DNA of 64,000 nt, from positions 124,001 to 188,000 of the forward strand of contig NZ_JAGSYG010000005.1 in NCBI RefSeq assembly GCF_025685655.1. The letters are read 5' to 3'. The first letter of the stretch is position 1. Each line of letters starts with the position of its first letter. Below the pieces are notes generated by a model. It was not told the DNA's origin. It did not search any database and saw nothing but the letters and a program-made list of their open reading frames with translations. The DNA is from Acidicapsa ligni (GTDB lineage: Bacteria > Acidobacteriota > Terriglobia > Terriglobales > Acidobacteriaceae). The translations under genes were made by a program, and so were the position numbers. Positions 22,819-30,452 of the stretch are shown in pieces.

Positions 22819-22950
22819 TAACGATAAGGCGGCATATCTGAAGTAATCACCCGTCCTCGATGAGTACATCGGCGATTTTTGCGACAACTGACATGCCCGA
22901 ACGAACTTGTGGTTTCACCGCTTCGGAATTGACGCGCGATTGATTTTATA

Positions 22951-22981
22951 AGCGGCCGCCGTCTTGGCAACGGCCGCCGCT
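22951..22981. terminator. GC-rich hairpin between convergent genes
   Basis: Imperfect 11-bp arms (GCGGCCGCCGT with ACGGCCGCCGC, one mismatch) around a short loop, followed by TATTTGTT, between the Rossmann gene and the SnoaL-like gene. Confidence 0.6.
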
Positions 22982-22986
22982 ATTTG

Positions 22987-23436
22987 TTAGACAGTGCGAA
23001 TTAGGCCTAGCTGCGTGAGTGCGGTGACGCCGTCGTCGAGTCCAATCTCTTGGACGATCTTGCCGTTCTCAAGACGCAACACCGTCGTTCCGGTGAAGTG
23101 CATCTTGCGACCCGTCGCAGCCGGCAACGACCCAACCAGGAAGTCGGAGAATGCGGCCCCGCTGTGCGTGCCGCCACCGACCCAGCGACCAACGACATAG
23201 TCGCCTTCTGCGATGAGGTCTGCCGCTCCGCCGAAGCTGAGGTCTGGGAAGGCGGCGCGGAAATCAGCCATGAACGCCTTGATGTCCGCATGGCCACGGC
23301 GAGGCTCGTGCAACGAATACTGCAAGAGCATGTTCGGTGCGGCGAGCTCGTCAACGATGCTGAGGTCGCATTTGAGTCCCCAGAAGCTGGTGAACCAACG
23401 GCCTACGATGGCTTTATTCTCTTGTTCTTTCGACAT
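22987..23436 (-). CDS. SnoaL-like ester cyclase family protein
   Basis: 149 aa in the NTF2-like/SnoaL fold: NKAIVGRWFTSFWG at the start, NMLLQYSLHEPRRGHADIKAF, DFRAAFPDLSF, and GRKMHFTGTTVLRLENGKIVQEI at the end. The last block is usual in SnoaL-type ester cyclases. An Ada-box-like element lies 90 bp upstream on the same strand, and a broken paralogue with the same type of box is at 28348-28934. Membership in the alkylation response is inferred from that box; the substrate is unknown. Confidence 0.85.
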   Translation of the reverse strand: MSKEQENKAIVGRWFTSFWGLKCDLSIVDELAAPNMLLQYSLHEPRRGHADIKAFMADFRAAFPDLSFGGAADLIAEGDYVVGRWVGGGTHSGAAFSDFLVGSLPAATGRKMHFTGTTVLRLENGKIVQEIGLDDGVTALTQLGLIRTV

Positions 23437-23525
23437 AAGTGTTCTCCATATGCAGGGATGTTGGCGAAGGCCAGCATGGCGTCCGCCTCTGCATCTCGAA
23501 AGTTATTCCGATGTCGGAGCAGAGA

Positions 23526-23550
23526 CACTCCGTATCTTGCTTTCGAATCC
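23526..23550 (-). promoter_or_regulatory. Ada-box-like element a (SnoaL gene)
   Basis: On the minus strand: GAT-TCGAAA-GCAA, followed by GATACGGAGTG. It differs from AAT-N6-GCAA only at the first base. It ends 89 bp before the SnoaL start codon at 23436. It is one of five similar elements between 23.5 and 29.1 kb. Confidence 0.65.
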
Positions 23551-23577
23551 GAGGCTGGGCTCCGCTCAAGCAAATTT

Positions 23578-23602
23578 GAATTTGAGAGCAAAGAACGGAG
23601 TG
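23578..23602 (+). promoter_or_regulatory. Ada-box-like element b (vsr-ogt)
   Basis: AAT-TTGAGA-GCAA, followed by AGAACGGAGTG, ending 62 bp before the vsr start. It fits AAT-N6-GCAA exactly and is divergent from element a, from which it is separated by 27 bp. Confidence 0.7.
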
Positions 23603-23664
23603 AGATGAAGGATTGAAGCGGCTACCTTCTGAGAACGCTCGCAGCACGAGCGGGAGGAGAAGCG

Positions 23665-24183
23665 ATGTTAAACAGGGGCATACCAAGGACACTCAACGGC
23701 ACCGTCGTTCCAACTCAGCTACCTATGGGCTCATGGGCGAGTACCCCAGCCGTACGTCGTGTGATGCAGGGAAACAAGTCCAGAGACACAAAACCTGAGG
23801 TCGCTGTGAGATCGGCCGTCCATGCGTTAGGGATGCGTTATCGAATTTCAGCGCGTCCGCTAAGAGATCTCAGGAGGACCGCTGACTTGGTCTTTCGAAA
23901 CGCGAGGGTCGCGGTCTTTGTCGACGGCTGCTTTTGGCATGGATGCCCGCAACATCATGCACAGCCCAAGACAAACGCGACTTATTGGGCGACGAAGATT
24001 CGAGGCAACAAGACCCGAGATGAGGACACGACAGAACGACTCCGTCAGGAAGGATGGACTGTCCTGAGATTCTGGTCACACGAAGAACCGCCGAGTGTGG
24101 CAACGCAGATCGCGGAGGTGGTGGCAAGAAACATTCGCGCTGCAAGCCCGTCGCTAGGAGGAAGACACAATGTCAATGATTGA
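23665..24183 (+). CDS. vsr: very short patch repair (Vsr-type) endonuclease
   Basis: 172 aa, slightly longer than E. coli Vsr. Signatures are MQGNKSRDTKPEVAVRSAVHALGMRYR, the catalytic Asp74 in RRTADLVF, and FVDGCFWHGCPQHH with the metal and zinc ligands. The C-terminal part is VLRFWSHE. Vsr nicks T:G mismatches, normally those made by deamination at Dcm sites, yet no dcm-type methylase is in the window. ATG at 23665 follows GGAGGAG. It overlaps the ogt gene by 14 bp and is preceded by Ada-box element b, so it is probably induced with alkyl-repair genes. Confidence 0.93.
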   Translation: MLNRGIPRTLNGTVVPTQLPMGSWASTPAVRRVMQGNKSRDTKPEVAVRSAVHALGMRYRISARPLRDLRRTADLVFRNARVAVFVDGCFWHGCPQHHAQPKTNATYWATKIRGNKTRDEDTTERLRQEGWTVLRFWSHEEPPSVATQIAEVVARNIRAASPSLGGRHNVND

Positions 24184-24679
24184 GCATTTCCTGATGGAGT
24201 CACCGTTGGGCACCCTGACGCTGGTGAATACGAATGGAGTTCTGAGCGGCTTATACATGCCGAATCACCTTAGAGGGCCCAAGGCGGATTCGCTGGGATC
24301 GAGGGTAACGTCGGGCTTCGACAGTGTCCGTTCGCAACTCGGTGAGTATTTCGAGCGCAAGCGTATTCACTTCGACTTGCGGATCGCGCTATGCGGAACG
24401 ACCTTCCAGCAATCGGTGTGGAAGCTGCTGCAAACCATCCCGTATGGAGAGACGCGCTCTTATGGAGAGCTTGCGGACCTGCTGGGCAACCGCCTCGCCA
24501 TCCGTGCCGTGGGACTTGCGAACGGCAGGAACCCAATCAGCATTATCATTCCGTGCCACCGCGTTGTCGGCAGCAACGGAAGCCTCACGGGCTATGCCGG
24601 TGGCCTCGAACGAAAACGTCGGCTGCTGGAATTAGAAGCAGCCAACGTGACATCGCAGCAGCAGCTCAGCCTTTCGTAG
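24170..24679 (+). CDS. ogt: methylated-DNA--protein-cysteine methyltransferase
   Basis: 169 aa suicide repair protein. Active-site Cys129 is in IIIPCHRVVGSNGSLTGYAGG; the HTH part is TTFQQSVWKLLQTIPYGETRSYGELA; the Asn hinge is LANGRNP. It removes O6-alkyl groups from guanine (and O4 from thymine). It overlaps vsr by 14 bp at the start and converges with alkA, overlapping its 3' end by 14 bp. It is a paralogue of the C-terminal half of ada nearby. Confidence 0.94.
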   Translation: MSMIEHFLMESPLGTLTLVNTNGVLSGLYMPNHLRGPKADSLGSRVTSGFDSVRSQLGEYFERKRIHFDLRIALCGTTFQQSVWKLLQTIPYGETRSYGELADLLGNRLAIRAVGLANGRNPISIIIPCHRVVGSNGSLTGYAGGLERKRRLLELEAANVTSQQQLSLS

Positions 24680-25340
24680 AACCGTCGCGTGGTACACGCC
24701 AGAGGTACCACGCGGCAATGGTTCGGTAGGGGCTCCACCGCTGTCCTTCCCTTGCGATTTCCTTCGCCGAAAGCGCCTTCGGTAGCGACGTCAAACGTCG
24801 ATGTCCCTCTCTCACTCCAAAATCATCTGCGGGTAGGACGTCCATCCGCTCCATGGTGTAAATCAGGAACATTTCAACGGTCCACCGACCAATCCCTTTG
24901 AGAGTCACCAGTCTTGAGATGAGGTCCTCGTCGGACATCTTGTCCGCGTCTTTCCGATCCGGGACCAAGCCGCTCAGGGAGCCCGACGCAATCTCGCGAA
25001 TCGTCTCGATCTTCCTCCCGGAGAATCCGCAGGCCCGAAGCGAGTCGAGATCCGCCGCCAGAATCTGGTTTGGGGATGGAAAGTTAGCTCCTCCGAACAG
25101 TGCCATGAATTTCGTGAGGATGGCATCGCCCGCCTTGGCATGCAGTTGCTGATATGCGATGGCACGTATCAAGGCTTCGTACGGCTCCCGAGCGGGCTTG
25201 GGCAGGTGCGTACACGGCCCGACCTGTTTAATGAGCTGCCTCCAGTCCGCGTCGATCGAAGCGAGATGAAGAGTCGCCGCGCGGAATGGTCGTTGTTCTG
25301 TCGATAGCTTCAATTCGTTGGGTGTAAGGGACTTGGTCAC
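24666..25340 (-). CDS. alkA: DNA-3-methyladenine glycosylase (AlkA-type, HhH-GPD)
   Basis: About 224 aa, the short AlkA form without the N-terminal domain of E. coli AlkA. The helix-hairpin-helix is LVTLKGIGRWTVEMFL and the catalytic Asp lies in MDVLPADDFGVREG. It excises 3-alkyladenine and related bases. The start is uncertain. A TTG at 25382 lies within Ada-box element c, so GTG at 25340 is used here. The gene is divergent from ada; the shared 100-bp promoter region holds element c, which may drive both. Confidence 0.9.
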   Translation of the reverse strand: MTKSLTPNELKLSTEQRPFRAATLHLASIDADWRQLIKQVGPCTHLPKPAREPYEALIRAIAYQQLHAKAGDAILTKFMALFGGANFPSPNQILAADLDSLRACGFSGRKIETIREIASGSLSGLVPDRKDADKMSDEDLISRLVTLKGIGRWTVEMFLIYTMERMDVLPADDFGVREGHRRLTSLPKALSAKEIAREGQRWSPYRTIAAWYLWRVPRDGSTKG

Positions 25341-25368
25341 GAGGTCACCAATCGTGATCCTACCCTTT

Positions 25369-25393
25369 GAATTTGAAAGCAAGATTCGGAGTG
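25369..25393 (+). promoter_or_regulatory. Ada-box-like element c (ada / alkA)
   Basis: AAT-TTGAAA-GCAA, followed by GATTCGGAGTG, ending 53 bp before the ada start. It fits AAT-N6-GCAA exactly. It lies between divergent ada and alkA and may serve both, as Ada does in E. coli. Confidence 0.8.
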
Positions 25394-25446
25394 TCGTCGC
25401 TGAGGCATCTCGCTAAGGTTGAGAAGTAAGATTTGAAGGAGTTGCA

Positions 25447-26526
25447 ATGAACAGGCAGATGGAAATCGAGAAGCTCGCGACCGAGACAACCAACGATCCC
25501 CGTTGGCTGTTGCTTGTAGCGAGGGACAAGGAATCGGATGGGAAGTTCTTCTATTCGGTGAAGACAACGGGCGTGTACTGCCGTCCGTCGTGTGCCGCTC
25601 GCCTCGCACGCCCAGAGAACGTGCGCTTCTTTAGGACAACTGCAGAGGCAGAGAAAGCAGGTTTCCGAGCCTGCAAACGATGCAAGCCGGCTGGACTCTC
25701 GCTGACCGAAGCCAACACAGCCAGGATCGAAAAAGTATGCCGACTCATCGAGCGATCCGAGGAGACTCCTTCTCTTGAAAAACTAGCCAAGTATGCAGGG
25801 ATGAGTGTCTTTCATTTACATCGCACGTTCAAGGCGATCACTGGGCTCACGCCGAGCGGCTACGGCGCTGCTCACAGAACGAAGCGTGTCCGCAAGACTC
25901 TTGGCAAGAGTCAGTCTGTAACAGACGCGATCTACGATGCTGGTTTCAACTCCAACAGTCGTTTCTACGAGAGTGCAAACGAAGTTCTCGGGATGACTCC
26001 AACCAGTTTCCGCGACGGCGGCGCAAATACCGTGATTCACTTCGCGATCGCGGAGTGCTCCCTCGGCTCCATCCTGGTGGCCAAGAGCGAGCGCGGTGTC
26101 TGTGCTGTCCTCATGGGGGATGATCCGCTCCTGCTGGTACGCGATCTTCAGGACCAGTTTCCCAAGGCAGAGCTGGTCGGCGACGAGACCGGCTATGAGG
26201 ATCTGGTCGCCAAGGTGATTGGGCTCATTGAAAGGCCGGGCGTCGGACTTGACCTGCCCCTGGATATTCGCGGTACTGCCTTTCAGCAAAGGGTTTGGAA
26301 GGCATTGCAGCAAATCCCTGTCGGTACGACCGCAAGCTATGCGGATGTTGCGAAGGCCATCGGTATGCCAAAGGCCGTACGGGCGGTCGCGCAGGCCTGC
26401 GGAGCAAATACGCTGGCCGTCGCAATCCCGTGCCACCGCGTCGTCAGAAATGATGGAATGCTCTCCGGGTATCGCTGGGGTGTGGAGCGCAAACGAGCAC
26501 TGTTAGATCGAGAGGCACAGGCTTGA
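25447..26526 (+). CDS. ada: bifunctional Ada regulator / O6-alkylguanine methyltransferase
   Basis: 359 aa with the full E. coli Ada layout. The N-terminal zinc domain has Cys45, Cys49, Cys76 and Cys79 (TTGVYCRPSCAAR, FRACKRCKP); Cys45 is the expected methylphosphotriester acceptor that switches Ada to an activator. An AraC-type HTH follows at about 95-185 (LAKYAGMSVFHLHRTFKAITGLTP). The C-terminal transferase has Cys329 in AIPCHRVV. Start follows GGAG. It is coupled to the next gene (TTGA overlap) and preceded by its own Ada box. Confidence 0.96.
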   Translation: MNRQMEIEKLATETTNDPRWLLLVARDKESDGKFFYSVKTTGVYCRPSCAARLARPENVRFFRTTAEAEKAGFRACKRCKPAGLSLTEANTARIEKVCRLIERSEETPSLEKLAKYAGMSVFHLHRTFKAITGLTPSGYGAAHRTKRVRKTLGKSQSVTDAIYDAGFNSNSRFYESANEVLGMTPTSFRDGGANTVIHFAIAECSLGSILVAKSERGVCAVLMGDDPLLLVRDLQDQFPKAELVGDETGYEDLVAKVIGLIERPGVGLDLPLDIRGTAFQQRVWKALQQIPVGTTASYADVAKAIGMPKAVRAVAQACGANTLAVAIPCHRVVRNDGMLSGYRWGVERKRALLDREAQA

Positions 26527-27296
26527 ACACCCTATTCGCAGATGAAGTTCAAATAGCCCAGGAAACGAGCGCGGGCTCGATTCCGTTCGAAGGAGCTGTC
26601 ATAAGAGTCAACGCGCTCGATTGGAGCCAGATCAGGAAAGACCTCGATGACCAAGGAAGCGCCGTGCTGCCGAGCGTCCTCTCCGCAGACGAATGCAAGG
26701 CGATCGCTTCTCTCTATCCGGAGGAGTCTTCCTTTCGCAGTCGCGTCGTCATGGGAAGGCACGGGTTCGGACGGGGCGAATATAAATACTTCAGCTACCC
26801 GCTCCCGCCTATCATTCATGGTCTCCGCACGGCGCTCTATCCTCAACTCGCTCCCGTCGCGAATCGCTGGAACGAAGCAATGGGAATCGAGGTGCGCTAT
26901 CCAGAGAGCCACGCCGATTTCATCCAGCGATGCCACGATGCAGGACAACTGCGACCCACTCCGTTGCTCTTGCAGTATGGTCCAGGCGATTACAACTGCC
27001 TGCATCAGGATCTCTACGGAGAGCACGTCTTTCCGATTCAGGTCGCCATCCTGCTTTCCGATCCGCAGCGCGATTTCACCGGAGGTGAATTCGTGCTCAC
27101 GGAACAACGTCCCCGTATGCAATCGCGACCCGAGGTCGTTCCGCTTCACCAGGGAGACGCCGTGGCTTTCGCGGTTCACCACCGGCCCGTGCAGGGCACG
27201 CGAGGCACCTATCGCGTCAACCTCCGGCACGGCGTCAGCCGCTTGCGTTCAGGGAAGCGTCATACCGTGGGCATCATCTTTCACGATGCCAACTAG
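26523..27296 (+). CDS. 2OG-Fe(II) oxygenase in the ada operon
   Basis: 257 aa. The iron-binding H-x-D is His161/Asp163 in YNCLHQDLYGEHVFP, with a distal His in the NLRHGVSRL region or KRHTVGII. GGEFVLTEQRPR and the DAVAF stretch are typical of prolyl-hydroxylase-like oxygenases. It is not canonical AlkB. It starts at a TTG overlapping the ada stop by 4 bp and is 7 bp upstream of alkB, so the three form one operon. Relatives linked to ada are known in many soil bacteria; a role in DNA or protein dealkylation is an inference. Confidence 0.88.
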   Translation: MNTLFADEVQIAQETSAGSIPFEGAVIRVNALDWSQIRKDLDDQGSAVLPSVLSADECKAIASLYPEESSFRSRVVMGRHGFGRGEYKYFSYPLPPIIHGLRTALYPQLAPVANRWNEAMGIEVRYPESHADFIQRCHDAGQLRPTPLLLQYGPGDYNCLHQDLYGEHVFPIQVAILLSDPQRDFTGGEFVLTEQRPRMQSRPEVVPLHQGDAVAFAVHHRPVQGTRGTYRVNLRHGVSRLRSGKRHTVGIIFHDAN

Positions 27297-27303
27297 GGGA
27301 GCC

Positions 27304-27957
27304 ATGAGCACATCGCTTTTTGAAATGGAGCCAACGGCACCGCCATCGAAAGATATTCTCGGTGCTGGCACGGCTGTCCTTGCTGGCTTTGCGCTTGATG
27401 CTGAGGAGGAGTTGCTTTCTTCACTCAAGGACGTCGTCGAACGGTCGCCGTTTCGCAATATGGTGACACCGGGTGGATTCCGCATGTCAGTTGCCATGTC
27501 GAACTGTGGCTCGCTCGGGTGGGTAACGGACCGGACCGGCTATCGATATGACGGGATCGACCCTGAAGCGAATCGGCCCTGGCCCGCTATGCCCACGGCA
27601 TTTCGGCAGCTTGCGGTAAGTGCCGCAGAAGAAGCAGGCTTCTCGAATTTCATCCCGGATGCCTGCCTGATAAATCGATATGAACCCGGTGCAAGATTGT
27701 CGTTGCACCAGGACAAGAATGAGCGTGATTTTACGCAGCCCATCGTCTCTGTCTCGCTGGGACTGTCCGCAACCTTCCTCTTCGGTGGTTTGGAGCGCGG
27801 GGACAAGACACAACGCATCCATGTCATACATGGCGATGTACTTGTTTGGGGAGGTTCCGCCAGATTGCGCTATCACGGTATTGCGCCGTTGAAGGACGGC
27901 GAACATCCGCGACTCGGCCGAGTTCGCTACAATCTCACCTTTCGGCATGCCGGCTGA
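27304..27957 (+). CDS. alkB: AlkB-type alkylated-DNA dioxygenase
   Basis: About 217 aa, as in E. coli AlkB. The iron ligands are His135 and Asp137 in RLSLHQDKNERDF and His191 in RLRYHGI. The 2OG-binding Arg pair is in RLGRVRYNLTFR. CGSLGWVTDRTGYRY is the nucleotide-recognition lid, and NRYEPGARLSLHQD is the family hallmark. It oxidatively removes methyl groups from 1-methyladenine and 3-methylcytosine. ATG at 27304 follows AGGGGA; the longer frame from 26647 is a shadow in the preceding gene. Confidence 0.95.
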   Translation: MSTSLFEMEPTAPPSKDILGAGTAVLAGFALDAEEELLSSLKDVVERSPFRNMVTPGGFRMSVAMSNCGSLGWVTDRTGYRYDGIDPEANRPWPAMPTAFRQLAVSAAEEAGFSNFIPDACLINRYEPGARLSLHQDKNERDFTQPIVSVSLGLSATFLFGGLERGDKTQRIHVIHGDVLVWGGSARLRYHGIAPLKDGEHPRLGRVRYNLTFRHAG

Positions 27958-28054
27958 GCCCCGTGATCTTCAACTCGATCTTGTCTATCGAAACCCTGGA
28001 CGAGACCTACGCACGCCCTGTCGTATCAACAAGCACAATGCAGTGACGTCTTCG

Positions 28055-28264
28055 ATGAAAACTATGAACACTCCCAGCAGGCATGAGCAAGCTATCTCGC
28101 CTATTCCATCGGATCGAGCCGTCGTCCTCGGCATGTGTGCCGAACTTGTGCGGGTTGGGTACGGAATCCTTGAAGACCTCCCCGTCGTGAACTCGCAGAT
28201 TCCCTATCTGAAGTCTGGTGAGATTTATTGGCTTGGCCCGCACCAGGTCACGAGACTCCAATAG
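28055..28264 (+). CDS. small hypothetical protein after alkB
   Basis: About 69 aa, containing AVVLGMCAELVRVGYGILEDLP and SGEIYWLGPHQVTRL. The composition looks protein-like, but I do not recognise a family. It lies 97 bp after alkB on the same strand and could be the last gene of the ada operon. The frame extends upstream to 27947, overlapping alkB, where it looks non-coding. No good ribosome-binding site is seen at 28055, so this is tentative. Confidence 0.4.
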   Translation: MKTMNTPSRHEQAISPIPSDRAVVLGMCAELVRVGYGILEDLPVVNSQIPYLKSGEIYWLGPHQVTRLQ

Positions 28265-28347
28265 CCGGAGCGGAATCTGGCGGCTGCGTGATCTCCGTTA
28301 CGAGATCCCTCGCAACCGCTGGATCGTCGACTAGGCTCGAATCTCTC

Positions 28348-28934
28348 TTAGCAATATTTGGCACAAATAGATTCCGCGGTTTCGTCTTCTACTTGGGCGT
28401 TGGATAGGAGACCGAGTTGCCGGAGTGCGGTTACCCCATCATCGAGTCCGACCTCTTCGACGATCTTGCCGCTATCAAGCCGCAGTATGGTGATACCTGT
28501 GAAATGTATCTTCTTCCCGGACGCTGCCGGCAGGGAGCCCGCCAGGAAATCACTAAAGGCAGGTCCTGTATACGTGCCGCCGCCCTCTCACTGTCCAATC
28601 ACATAGTCTCGGTCGGCCAGCAAGGGTGCTGTTCCCCAAAAGTACAGATCAGGAAATGCATCGCGAAAACTGCGCATGAACATCTTGATATCCTCTCGAC
28701 CACGGCGAGGTCTATGCAACGAATACCGCAAGAACATTTCTGGAGAAGCAGCTCATCGACGGCGGCCGGGTCAAAGATCCTGCCCCAAAAGTCCGTGAAC
28801 CACCGTCCCACCACGATCTTGTTTTTCGATTGTAGATCTTTGCTTGCCTCAGCGTATCGAGAGAGAGCCGCTAGCCCCATAGTGGTCAGCAATCCCATCT
28901 TTATAGCGTTTCCGCGGTCCATTATTCGTGTCAT
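28348..28934 (-). pseudogene. broken SnoaL-like ester cyclase gene
   Basis: This is a paralogue of the gene at 22987-23436, recognisable throughout: NKIVVGRWFTDFWG, MFLRYSLHRPRRGREDIKM, DAFPDLYFWG, AFSDFLAGSLPAASG, IHFTGITILRLDSGKIVEE. Two lesions are seen. A one-base loss after VDELL (about 28741-28745) shifts the frame, and a Trp codon in the GQWEGG-like position is TGA (about 28590). The N-terminus carries an extra hydrophobic/Tat-like leader (MGLLTTMGLAALSRYA). It still has an Ada-box-like element 49 bp upstream. Confidence 0.85.
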
Positions 28935-28983
28935 CCGTGCATCCTTTCGCAGTTCAAAAGCTAGCTGGAGGGCATGGACTCGG

Positions 28984-29008
28984 CACTCCGAATCTAGCTT
29001 TCAAATTT
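28984..29008 (-). promoter_or_regulatory. Ada-box-like element d (broken SnoaL gene)
   Basis: Minus strand: AAT-TTGAAA-GCTA, followed by GATTCGGAGTG. One mismatch from AAT-N6-GCAA (GCTA), though otherwise nearly identical to element c. It ends 49 bp before the start of the SnoaL pseudogene. Confidence 0.65.
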
Positions 29009-29082
29009 CGCGTTCTCTGAGAGCGTATGACGGGACGTAGAAATGCTGCCCTACAAGCCGATCTACGGATGGATGTAGGACG

Positions 29083-29107
29083 GAATTCAAGAGCAAGAAT
29101 CGGAGTT
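29083..29107 (+). promoter_or_regulatory. Ada-box-like element e (TMEM175-like gene)
   Basis: AAT-TCAAGA-GCAA, followed by GAATCGGAGTT. It fits AAT-N6-GCAA exactly. The distance of 64 bp to the ATG at 29172 matches the other four elements (49-89 bp), which favours that start over 29124. Confidence 0.65.
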
Positions 29108-29171
29108 TTTATCTGAAAGAGCGTTGATACGGTCTCTTATAGAAACGATTCTTTCGTGCAATGAGGACCGA

Positions 29172-29990
29172 ATGACTACGACAACTAGACTCGCTGCCGC
29201 ATGTTCCCTTGATCCCAATCACAAGAGCCTAAACGTGACGAGCGCTCAACCCGTGCAACCAGAGCTTCGGGCGTTTCTCTGGAGGAAGGTCGCTTTCCCT
29301 CCTTCAGGTCCTCAAGCCTCGGATACTGCAACCGCCGAAAATGAGGCCGAGGTGCTCAAAGACGAAGAGCCGAATCTTTCCGCTCGTACTCGCTTGGAAG
29401 CACTCAGCGACGGTGCTTTTTCCATCATCATTACCCTGCTCGTCATTGAGATTCACCGTCCGAGCGCCACGCCGGGAAGATTGGCAGGGGAACTGCTAAA
29501 GGAATGGCCTTCTTATCTCGCTTATGCAGTGGCTTTTCTCAATGTAGGAGTTATTTGGTGCAATCATCACTATCTCTTTGAACACCTTCGCAAGGTAGAT
29601 CTGGCTATGAATTGGATCAATCTCGGTATTCTCGGTACGGCAGCGCTAATCCCATTTCCGACGGGCGTGGTGGCGAGCGCCTTCGTAGATGGCAATCTTG
29701 TAGATCAAAAGGCTGGCGTAGTTTTTTACGCGCTCATCGCTGGGCTCATGTCGGCGGCGTGGTTGCCGGCATTTTCGTACTTGCATTGTCACTCCGAGCT
29801 CGTAGAACCTAGCGTGCCGCCAAGCATGTTCGCAACCCAGCTGATACGTCCAGCCATAGGTGTCCTACTCTATATCGTGGCTGGTGTGCTTGGCTGGTTC
29901 GTGCATCCGGTCGCAGCAGTCGTGATTTTCTTTGGTGTCGTGGCGTACTATGCCTGCACGAGCCAGGGTGTGCGACGCACAATCAGATAA
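29172..29990 (+). CDS. TMEM175/DUF1211-family membrane protein
   Basis: About 272 aa. A soluble N-terminal stretch of about 70 residues is followed by [21 protein letters not shown], the first helix with the F/S-S-D-G signature of TMEM175-type potassium channels. Five further hydrophobic helices follow ([38 protein letters not shown] and others), giving the six-helix fold. Bacterial members are proposed potassium channels. It is the rightmost gene with an Ada-box-like promoter, an unexpected link to alkylation stress. Confidence 0.85.
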
Positions 29991-30059
29991 TCAAAATGGG
30001 GCGGACCTAAGTTCAATGCGCCTCGTTCATGCCATTCGGCACACCAAAGACCGTGTGGC

Positions 30060-30452
30060 CTTTCGTCGTCAATTGGTGATTACAGGCCGACGCACTCATC
30101 GAGAATTGTTCCCTGATACCAAGTCGGACTGCCGCATGACGCACCTGGAAGCATTCTGAGAATTTCTTATTGGACCTCTCCAGGACTCCTGAGAAACAGC
30201 ACCGGTTTTCCAATTCGCAGAATCTAAAGAAGAAGCGCCCGATTAGGCAACCTTGGCAACTTCCTGTTTATTACGGCAACGGTAGGCAACTTATTGAAAC
30301 TACGTGGTACGGACCGCACCCTACACGACGTTTCACACGCATTTTTTCCTTTATTGGACCTTTACAGGACCTCTGGCAGAACGAAAAGCTTCGGGAAGCA
30401 ACTGACACGCGGGTTGGGGGCTGGGTCTGAGTCGATGAATGCATCGGCGATA
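30060..30452. repeat. dispersed repeat, copy B (longest copy)
   Basis: The right half (30269-30443) matches copy A; the left half (from about GACGCACTCATCGAG) matches copy C at 43110-43310, for example ATCTAAAGAAGAA and CGATTAG. Within it the motif TTATTGGACCT-N5-AGGAC occurs twice, near 30168 and 30352. Where copy A joins the tRNA fragment, copy B has CTTCCTGTTTATTACGGC, a faint resemblance to the tRNA/element junction. No gene is evident in 29991-30564. Confidence 0.7.

Follow-up and report, generated by a model that had tools for sequence, protein, structure and literature searches.

Genes of the block

The window analysed here, a stretch of 64,000 nucleotides from Acidicapsa ligni (contig NZ_JAGSYG010000005.1, positions 124,001 to 188,000; coordinates below are window positions), contains a block at about 22871..30102 in which the gene of the regulator Ada and several of its neighbours are preceded by five 25-bp elements that we regard as predicted Ada sites, namely operator 1 (23526..23550, minus strand), operator 2 (23578..23602, plus), operator 3 (25369..25393, plus), operator 4 (28984..29008, minus) and operator 5 (29083..29107, plus).

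Operator 1 precedes a minus-strand gene (22987..23436) for a SnoaL-like protein of 149 amino acids and ester-cyclase/NTF2-fold type (copy 1; PF07366, 6.3e-28, 97.6 bits against a gathering score of 28.4). Operator 2 is followed on the plus strand by vsr (23665..24183), of the T:G mismatch endonuclease family (PF03852, 6.8e-19; TIGR00632 over its cut-off; PDB 1cw0, 2.1e-10), and by ogt (24170..24679) for an O6-methylguanine-DNA methyltransferase (PF01035; TIGR00589 over its cut-off), a pairing that could have its logic in Ogt converting O6-methylguanine:T to a G:T mismatch that Vsr could nick. Behind operator 3 lie, likewise on the plus strand, ada (25447..26526), whose product of 359 amino acids combines a zinc domain, an AraC-type helix-turn-helix part and a methyltransferase, an Oxygenase-NA gene (26523..27296; PF09859, E 1.7e-89) for an iron(II)/2-oxoglutarate (Fe(II)/2OG) oxygenase, and alkB (27304..27957; PF13532; NCBIfam PRK15401 over its cut-off). 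Operator 4 faces a second SnoaL gene (copy 2; 28405..28934, minus), and operator 5 precedes a plus-strand gene (29172..29990) for a predicted channel of the TMEM175 family (PF06736, 2.1e-26 on the open reading frame (ORF) 29124-29990, 92.6 bits against a gathering score of 25; PDB 5vre, 2.2e-18). The ATG start of this gene at 29172 is inferred from the position of its -10 hexamer, the listed TTG start at 29124 being unlikely since it lies upstream of that hexamer. An alkA-like gene for an HhH-GPD glycosylase (24666..25382, minus; PF00730, 3.1e-16; the NCBIfam alkA model matched below its cut-off) lies between ogt and ada.

An initial annotation of the window, made from its letters alone, had proposed an Ada regulon comprising ada-oxygenase-alkB with the divergent alkA, vsr-ogt, two SnoaL-like genes and the TMEM175-like channel. 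Boxes do stand before all of these except alkA, at which none of the five operators is directed; since operator 3 faces ada and the alkA ORF as listed begins inside it, control of alkA is unsupported. Both SnoaL genes have a box as proposed, but copy 2 is broken here by an in-frame TGA and a frameshift (tblastn matches it in two frames with a stop over 28405-28832), whereas comparison genome G072 has its counterpart as an uninterrupted ORF of 193 amino acids. (G-numbers denote comparison genomes and L-numbers fetched loci.)

A composite operator

A direct check of the sequence confirmed the five elements at the positions and on the strands first assigned to them. The core that they had been said to share, AAT-N6-GCAA or one mismatch from it, is exact at 23578, 25369 and 29083 and changed once in the other two (GAT instead of AAT at 23526, GCTA instead of GCAA at 28984), and the proposed distance of 49-89 bp to a start codon agrees with our counts, made by hand on the sequence and the ORF list, of 89 bp for SnoaL copy 1, 62 for vsr, 53 for ada, 49 for SnoaL copy 2 and 64 for TMEM175. 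The comparison with the A-box/B-box layout of Escherichia coli holds as far as it goes, GAATTTGAAAGCAA in the block being identical in 13 of 14 positions to the E. coli alkA box GAATATGAAAGCAA (the E. coli ada box is AATTAAAGCGCAAGATTG), but in all five sites the B-box is followed after 4 bp by CGG, so that the operator has the form A+B+X, as in operator 3, AAT-TTGAAA-GCAA-GATT-CGGAGTG. It is thus a composite, in a block with an E. coli-like Ada, of E. coli-type A- and B-boxes and the CGG X-box of the Caulobacter regulator Cada2. In the terms of a recent study (PMC10957082), the five operators lie outside the A+B class, which has no X-box, and share the B-box and X-box of Cada2 target promoters with a spacer of 4 bp rather than 3.

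The bare AAT-N6-GCAA pattern occurs at chance level (7 occurrences in the window, where 9.0 would be expected), and the significance of the elements therefore rests on their extended form. Over 24 of its 25 bases and with at most 3 mismatches, site 3 is found at three places in the window, none being expected from 100 shuffles, and its full sequence at the same tolerance recurs at three places in the 5.68-Mb genome, all inside the block. The degenerate 25-bp consensus RRATTYRARAGCWARRWWCGGAGTK was derived from the five sites themselves, so their exact matches are no test of it and its rarity elsewhere is; with up to 3 mismatches it has six places in the genome, the five exact ones in the block and one elsewhere at 3 mismatches, and the reversed pattern has none. 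The claim that the elements are not scattered at random genome-wide accordingly passed in a scan of this genome, made with the consensus and mismatches rather than with a weight matrix. Two other origins of the element were considered and rejected: a mobile repeat, as immediately beyond the box the information is no more than 0.5 bit and rises again only near the -10 hexamer, and a palindromic repressor site, as the GAAT-N11-ATTC symmetry of site 3 is lost in sites 1, 2 and 5.

Promoter geometry

A feature that the initial annotation had not remarked upon, and that marks the five elements as likely promoters, is a TANNNT hexamer beginning exactly 20 bp after each of them: TAACTT for SnoaL copy 1 (23500..23505, minus), TACCTT for vsr-ogt (23623..23628, plus), TAAGGT for ada (25414..25419, plus), TAGCTT for SnoaL copy 2 (28958..28963, minus) and TACGGT for TMEM175 (29128..29133, plus), all putative -10 hexamers. 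Among 68 distinct sites found at up to 2 mismatches the hexamer stands at offset 20 in 49, and no other offset has more than 5. The -10 is conventionally placed at -12 to -7, and on this placement the three boxes, A, B and X, start at -56, -47 and -39, so that the operator, at about -56 to -33, would occupy the position of an activator contacting the -35 region. The usual spacer between the -35 and -10 of sigma-70 promoters is shorter than 20 bp; CGGAGTK and TANNNT were therefore rejected as a plain -35/-10 pair, and an activator is preferred. The resulting rule, AAT-N6-GCAA-N4-CGGAGTK-N20-TANNNT, should allow targets to be predicted from sequence alone.

The element before ada and elsewhere

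With up to 2 mismatches the element occurs in 24 of 200 genomes of the family, at 47 places as counted from the table (reversed control, 1 place), and with at most one mismatch in 20 of 399 genomes of the class, in five families (reversed control, 0). The genes that follow are mostly ada (about 45-96% identical), Oxygenase-NA/alkB, SnoaL, vsr or TMEM175. In a sample not picked for boxes, the 30 best Ada zinc-domain loci of the family, GCAA-N4-CGG lies upstream of ada in 23 (counted from rows), often as CGGATAG. Since it also stands in front of ada, or of the partner oxygenase gene, in other families of this class, the element is very probably Ada's own promoter element. Seven matches (L087, L088, L091, L095-L098) have no -10 and are probably not promoters, those of L095 and L098 lying within listed ORFs, and in L074 and L156 a box stands without an evident target gene. 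In a scan of other genomes, a plain pattern with up to one mismatch gave 27 sites in 12 of 30 genomes reached through SnoaL loci (control, 0; 18 genomes had none), and the next downstream gene is of the ada/ogt type, an oxygenase, alkB, SnoaL or TMEM175 for 22 of the 27 sites; downstream of one further site come a DUF2059 gene and then vsr. No Pfam family was matched by the target proteins in L071, L074, L320 and L323, all of other genomes.

Several loci deserve mention in their own right. In G158 an Ada-type box precedes a resistance-nodulation-division efflux pair of HlyD and AcrB type (L070:8409-12866) whose adaptor resembles SnoaL at its N-terminus, as if the pump had captured promoter and SnoaL gene start together. 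Flavin-reductase-like genes recur behind the box or directly before ada (L069:5747-6403 in G194; L102:6041-6820 in G095, where the box, at 3 mismatches, falls within that ORF as listed; L284 on a plasmid of Thalassospira marina). In G405 the vsr-type box is kept without TANNNT at 20 bp (L152:8671-8747), alkA is short and the locus showed neither a vsr nor an ogt ORF. In Edaphobacter modestus a weak DUF2059 protein follows an exact box (L310:1569-2357), and its leader resembles that of the broken SnoaL copy 2, which may reflect a swap of coding segments downstream of a single promoter.

SnoaL and TMEM175 relatives

The initial reading of the boxes as marks of an expanded regulon draws strong support from comparison: besides the element before ada in several families, homologues of SnoaL and TMEM175 carry or adjoin it in distant bacteria. 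Relatives of SnoaL copy 1 (E at most 1e-20) occur in 7 of the 200 family genomes, at 10 places, and all 7 are among the 24 genomes with boxes; the boxes adjoin the SnoaL copies, though the one in G048 lacks a -10. In G128 and G148 the 2-mismatch box faces the divergent oxygenase gene, SnoaL itself having a weaker one (L232, 34.9 bits). Contigs of GTDB gave 305 relatives, of which 80 SnoaL loci at 78-93% identity were kept, titled Acidobacteriota, Proteobacteria, Bacteroidetes, Planctomycetes and others (phylum names partly assigned from genus names); some are metagenome-assembled genomes, and the isolates include Chryseolinea serpens, Chitinophaga oryziterrae, Limnoglobus roseus and Edaphobacter modestus. 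A weight matrix trained on 49 acidobacterial sites scores at least 5 bits, the threshold used, in 63 of 81 SnoaL upstream regions against 1.6% of 3200 control windows. Split by place, loci with ada, oxygenase or alkB have the element before SnoaL at 26 of 30 places and the other loci at 37 of 51; outside Acidobacteriota it is present at 56 of 74. No regulator of the SnoaL loci without ada was identified. On plasmids, a SnoaL-family ester cyclase gene of Acetobacter pasteurianus 386B is divergent to ada, and in an Agrobacterium ada is directly adjoined by an NTF2-family gene. The two SnoaL copies of G158 have identical 25-bp boxes about 38 kb apart (L070:16466-17008 and L072:13622-14194), which suggests a recent duplication. 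The predicted structure of the block's SnoaL protein (predicted local distance difference test score of the best model 71, others 42-63) matches PDB 3kkg best, with a TM-score of 0.72, polyketide cyclases coming first and ketosteroid isomerases and limonene epoxide hydrolase being among the matches listed, and supports the SnoaL/NTF2 fold only.

TMEM175 is matched at E of at most 1e-25 in 11 of the 200 family genomes. Close relatives (78-100%) are confined to three, the genome itself, G072 and G194, all with boxes, whereas none of the eight genomes with TMEM175 at 32-38% has a box; G508 has TMEM175 at 86%, with a box. Six of the 80 SnoaL loci, one of them G508, contain TMEM175 at 58-86% together with ada, and 4 of 30 searched genomes have a close TMEM175, at those same SnoaL/ada places. 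The TMEM175 homologues found at 58% identity or more thus adjoin ada or SnoaL. A distant TMEM175 (36%) lies beside SnoaL and ada in Caulobacter sp. S45 (L301:1682-2874).

The Ada protein and a candidate X-box arginine

The Ada of the block is 53% identical to that of E. coli. The zinc cysteines are conserved as C45, C49, C76 and C79, C45 corresponding to the E. coli methyl-acceptor Cys38 (PF02805, 2.6e-30); the A-box contacts R45 and R71 and the B-box contacts F114, H115 and R118, as given for E. coli in PMC3788762, are kept as R52 and R78 and as F122, H123 and R126; and the methyltransferase Cys321 is present as C329 (NCBIfam PRK15435, 463.7 against a cut-off of 345). Kamat et al. (2024) report that Cada2, a regulator with no A-box domain, depends on GCAA and CGG as well as on Arg68 and Arg114, and they present A+B and B+X operators as distinct systems (PMC10957082). 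The block Ada differs from Cada2 in having the zinc domain and in having SRFY in place of RLHD; the arginine of SRFY, Arg172, however lies 46 residues past the B-box Arg126, the same interval as from Arg68 to Arg114 if Arg68 is the arginine of SPHFQR, as we read the paper (PMC10957082), whereas E. coli Ada has serine at the corresponding position (118+46=164). Arg172, in the second helix-turn-helix, is thus a candidate for reading CGG, and the contrast with Ser164 makes this a one-residue prediction that is directly testable.

Arginine occupies this position in 107 of 108 Ada proteins of at least 40% identity, the sole serine being that of E. coli, and the upstream regions of the 108 hold A+B+X in 54, B+X in 29, A+B in 7 and none of these in 18, GCAA-N4-CGG being found in 201 of 4000 windows drawn at random from these loci. 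In a gammaproteobacterial sample, where 7 of 143 genomes have Ada at E of at most 1e-60 (one already a SnoaL genome), the X-box is present at 6 of 7 Ada promoters. Thirteen more proteins below 40% identity, probably mostly fusions, have the arginine, and B+X in only 2, so the arginine is not sufficient. The genome of A. ligni holds a second Ada zinc-domain protein, perhaps an Ada-AlkA fusion (G000:C1:870449-870640; L100), in which the B-box contact positions 122/123 carry R and Q, and no box of the present type was found in its region at up to 3 mismatches. No RLHD protein was seen in the fetched loci, no search for a Cada2 gene having been made in this genome.

A probably transferred island

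The block aligns with G072 at 87.5% over 7.0 kb, with G194 at 88.9%, 83.4% and 85.2% and with G508 at 86.7-88.7% apart from one 123-bp piece at 79.7%. These three genomes belong to other genera, and the rpoB region, where it aligns best, is only 80.7-82.3% identical to theirs, as against 84 and 88% for rpoB of two genomes of the same genus. Since the block is closer than rpoB to three other genera, horizontal transfer is probable, and the block would then be a transferred island. Alignment continues only about 0.1 kb past the block on each side, and its G+C is 0.56 against 0.53 on both flanks. Of cultivable relatives, Granulicella sp. dw_53 has the block too, and Edaphobacter modestus has the set in rearranged form. 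The seven other genomes of the genus in the sample lack both this SnoaL and this TMEM175, and one of the seven has a single 2-mismatch site, without -10, in a listed ORF near its start.

Interpretation and alternatives

Taken together these observations make it highly probable that the block is a self-contained, probably transferred Ada regulon with five Ada-driven promoters built on a composite operator. Ada would take a methyl group from damaged DNA onto Cys45, the counterpart of E. coli Cys38, and in methylated form would activate its own promoter and four neighbouring ones, its zinc domain reading AAT, its first helix-turn-helix GCAA and Arg172 CGG, whereupon RNA polymerase would be placed on the TANNNT hexamer at its fixed distance. 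The predicted outputs are Ada itself, two Fe(II)/2OG oxygenases (one of them AlkB), Vsr-Ogt, a SnoaL-like protein and a TMEM175-type channel.

A number of findings weigh against this reading. Eighteen of the 68 sites have no -10 at offset 19-20 (three of these have TANNNT at 21, and several of the sites without a -10 fall inside listed ORFs), including the sites in front of ada in L068, L083 and L084 and the SnoaL site of G048 (L092). Eighteen of the 81 SnoaL upstream regions score below 5 bits, three of them having GCAAGAANCGG with a poor remainder (L169, L170, L182), and the genes after 4 of the 27 scan sites do not fit (L317, L319, L320, L323; the site of L319 is divergent to a SnoaL gene). 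The 30 genomes scanned were chosen for having SnoaL, and sites that are homologous are not independent. As to the X-box, 25 of the 108 Ada upstream regions lack it, the Ada of L293 has the arginine without an X-box, the contrast in arginine hinges on one E. coli protein, and many of the Ada loci were fetched for holding boxes and are not independent as relatives. In G158 the identity of the block (80.2% over 4.6 kb) does not exceed that of rpoB (82.7%). Finally, the broken SnoaL copy 2 retains both operator and -10, so a box alone is no proof of a working target.

The last point is also among those favouring the notion that SnoaL and TMEM175 are passengers of the island and that their boxes are copied promoters with no selected function, to which may be added that the block is common to other genera as a unit and that box and SnoaL-like N-terminus are fused to an efflux pump in G158. 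We consider this rather unlikely, since the element persists before SnoaL where the fetched locus has no ada, oxygenase or alkB as well as outside Acidobacteriota, and since TMEM175 at 58-86% identity has either retained its box or stayed between SnoaL and ada. It appears distinctly improbable that the elements, while being real co-regulatory promoters, are read by another AraC-type regulator, either Cada2-like or the second Ada zinc-domain protein. The X-box was indeed published for Cada2 (PMC10957082), a second zinc-domain protein is at hand in the genome, and no Ada zinc domain was found in Limnoglobus G552, whose SnoaL has the element (29.7 bits), or in Chryseolinea G550, whose SnoaL has the weak GCAAGAATCGGG (-4.2 bits); however, ada itself is preceded by the element in many cases, the block Ada retains the E. 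coli contacts for both boxes, and the second protein has altered B-box contacts and no box in its region at up to 3 mismatches. Chance resemblance to a loose motif, for which the frequency of the bare pattern could be cited, is refuted by the uniqueness of the extended element in this genome, by reversed controls of 1, 0 and 0 places in the scans of the family, the class and the 30 other genomes, by the fixed -10 and by the matrix scores upstream of SnoaL, and its probability is negligible.

Beyond the preferred reading of a self-contained Ada regulon we tentatively advance a wider proposal, which we hold to be possible and somewhat short of probable: that A+B+X is the widespread Ada operator from which E. 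coli is derived by loss of the X-box and its arginine, and that Ada-type promoters in several phyla drive a conserved non-repair arm in which a SnoaL-like enzyme destroys reactive electrophiles and a TMEM175-type channel shifts ion or proton balance. In E. coli KefB and KefC bring about a shift of ion or proton balance. The alkylation response is commonly presented through four genes of E. coli. It may extend beyond DNA repair, and if the proposal is true it is a chemical defence as well; the promoter rule makes SnoaL-like and TMEM175 proteins candidate members of it in distant bacteria and gives both families a possible role.

Comparison with known Ada systems

Ada targets other than repair enzymes are not new as an idea, with precedents in E. 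coli aidB and in gcdH of Pseudomonas putida (PMC3788762). No literature tying SnoaL or TMEM175 to the Ada response was found, as judged from listings in which most subscription papers fall outside coverage. The E. coli regulon (ada-alkB, alkA, aidB) resembles that of the block in Ada architecture, contact residues, AAT-N6-GCAA and the position of alkB downstream of ada, but in the block CGGAGTK and a -10 at fixed distance are added to the operators, vsr-ogt, Oxygenase-NA, SnoaL and TMEM175 belong to the set, all operators fall within 5.6 kb and alkA is not evidently boxed. The P. putida regulon likewise has a non-repair gene with an Ada box, the acyl-CoA dehydrogenase gene gcdH, and its alkA has one too; no SnoaL, TMEM175 or X-box was found in the accessible part of its description (PMC3788762). 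The Caulobacter Cada2 regulon shares the succession of B-box GCAA and X-box CGG and an arginine 46 residues after the B-box arginine, whereas Cada2 is without the zinc/A-box domain and has RLHD, where the block has an EcAda-like protein with SRFY and an A-box in its operator (PMC10957082). The A+B+X operator bridges two classes that were described as separate in 2024 (PMC10957082).

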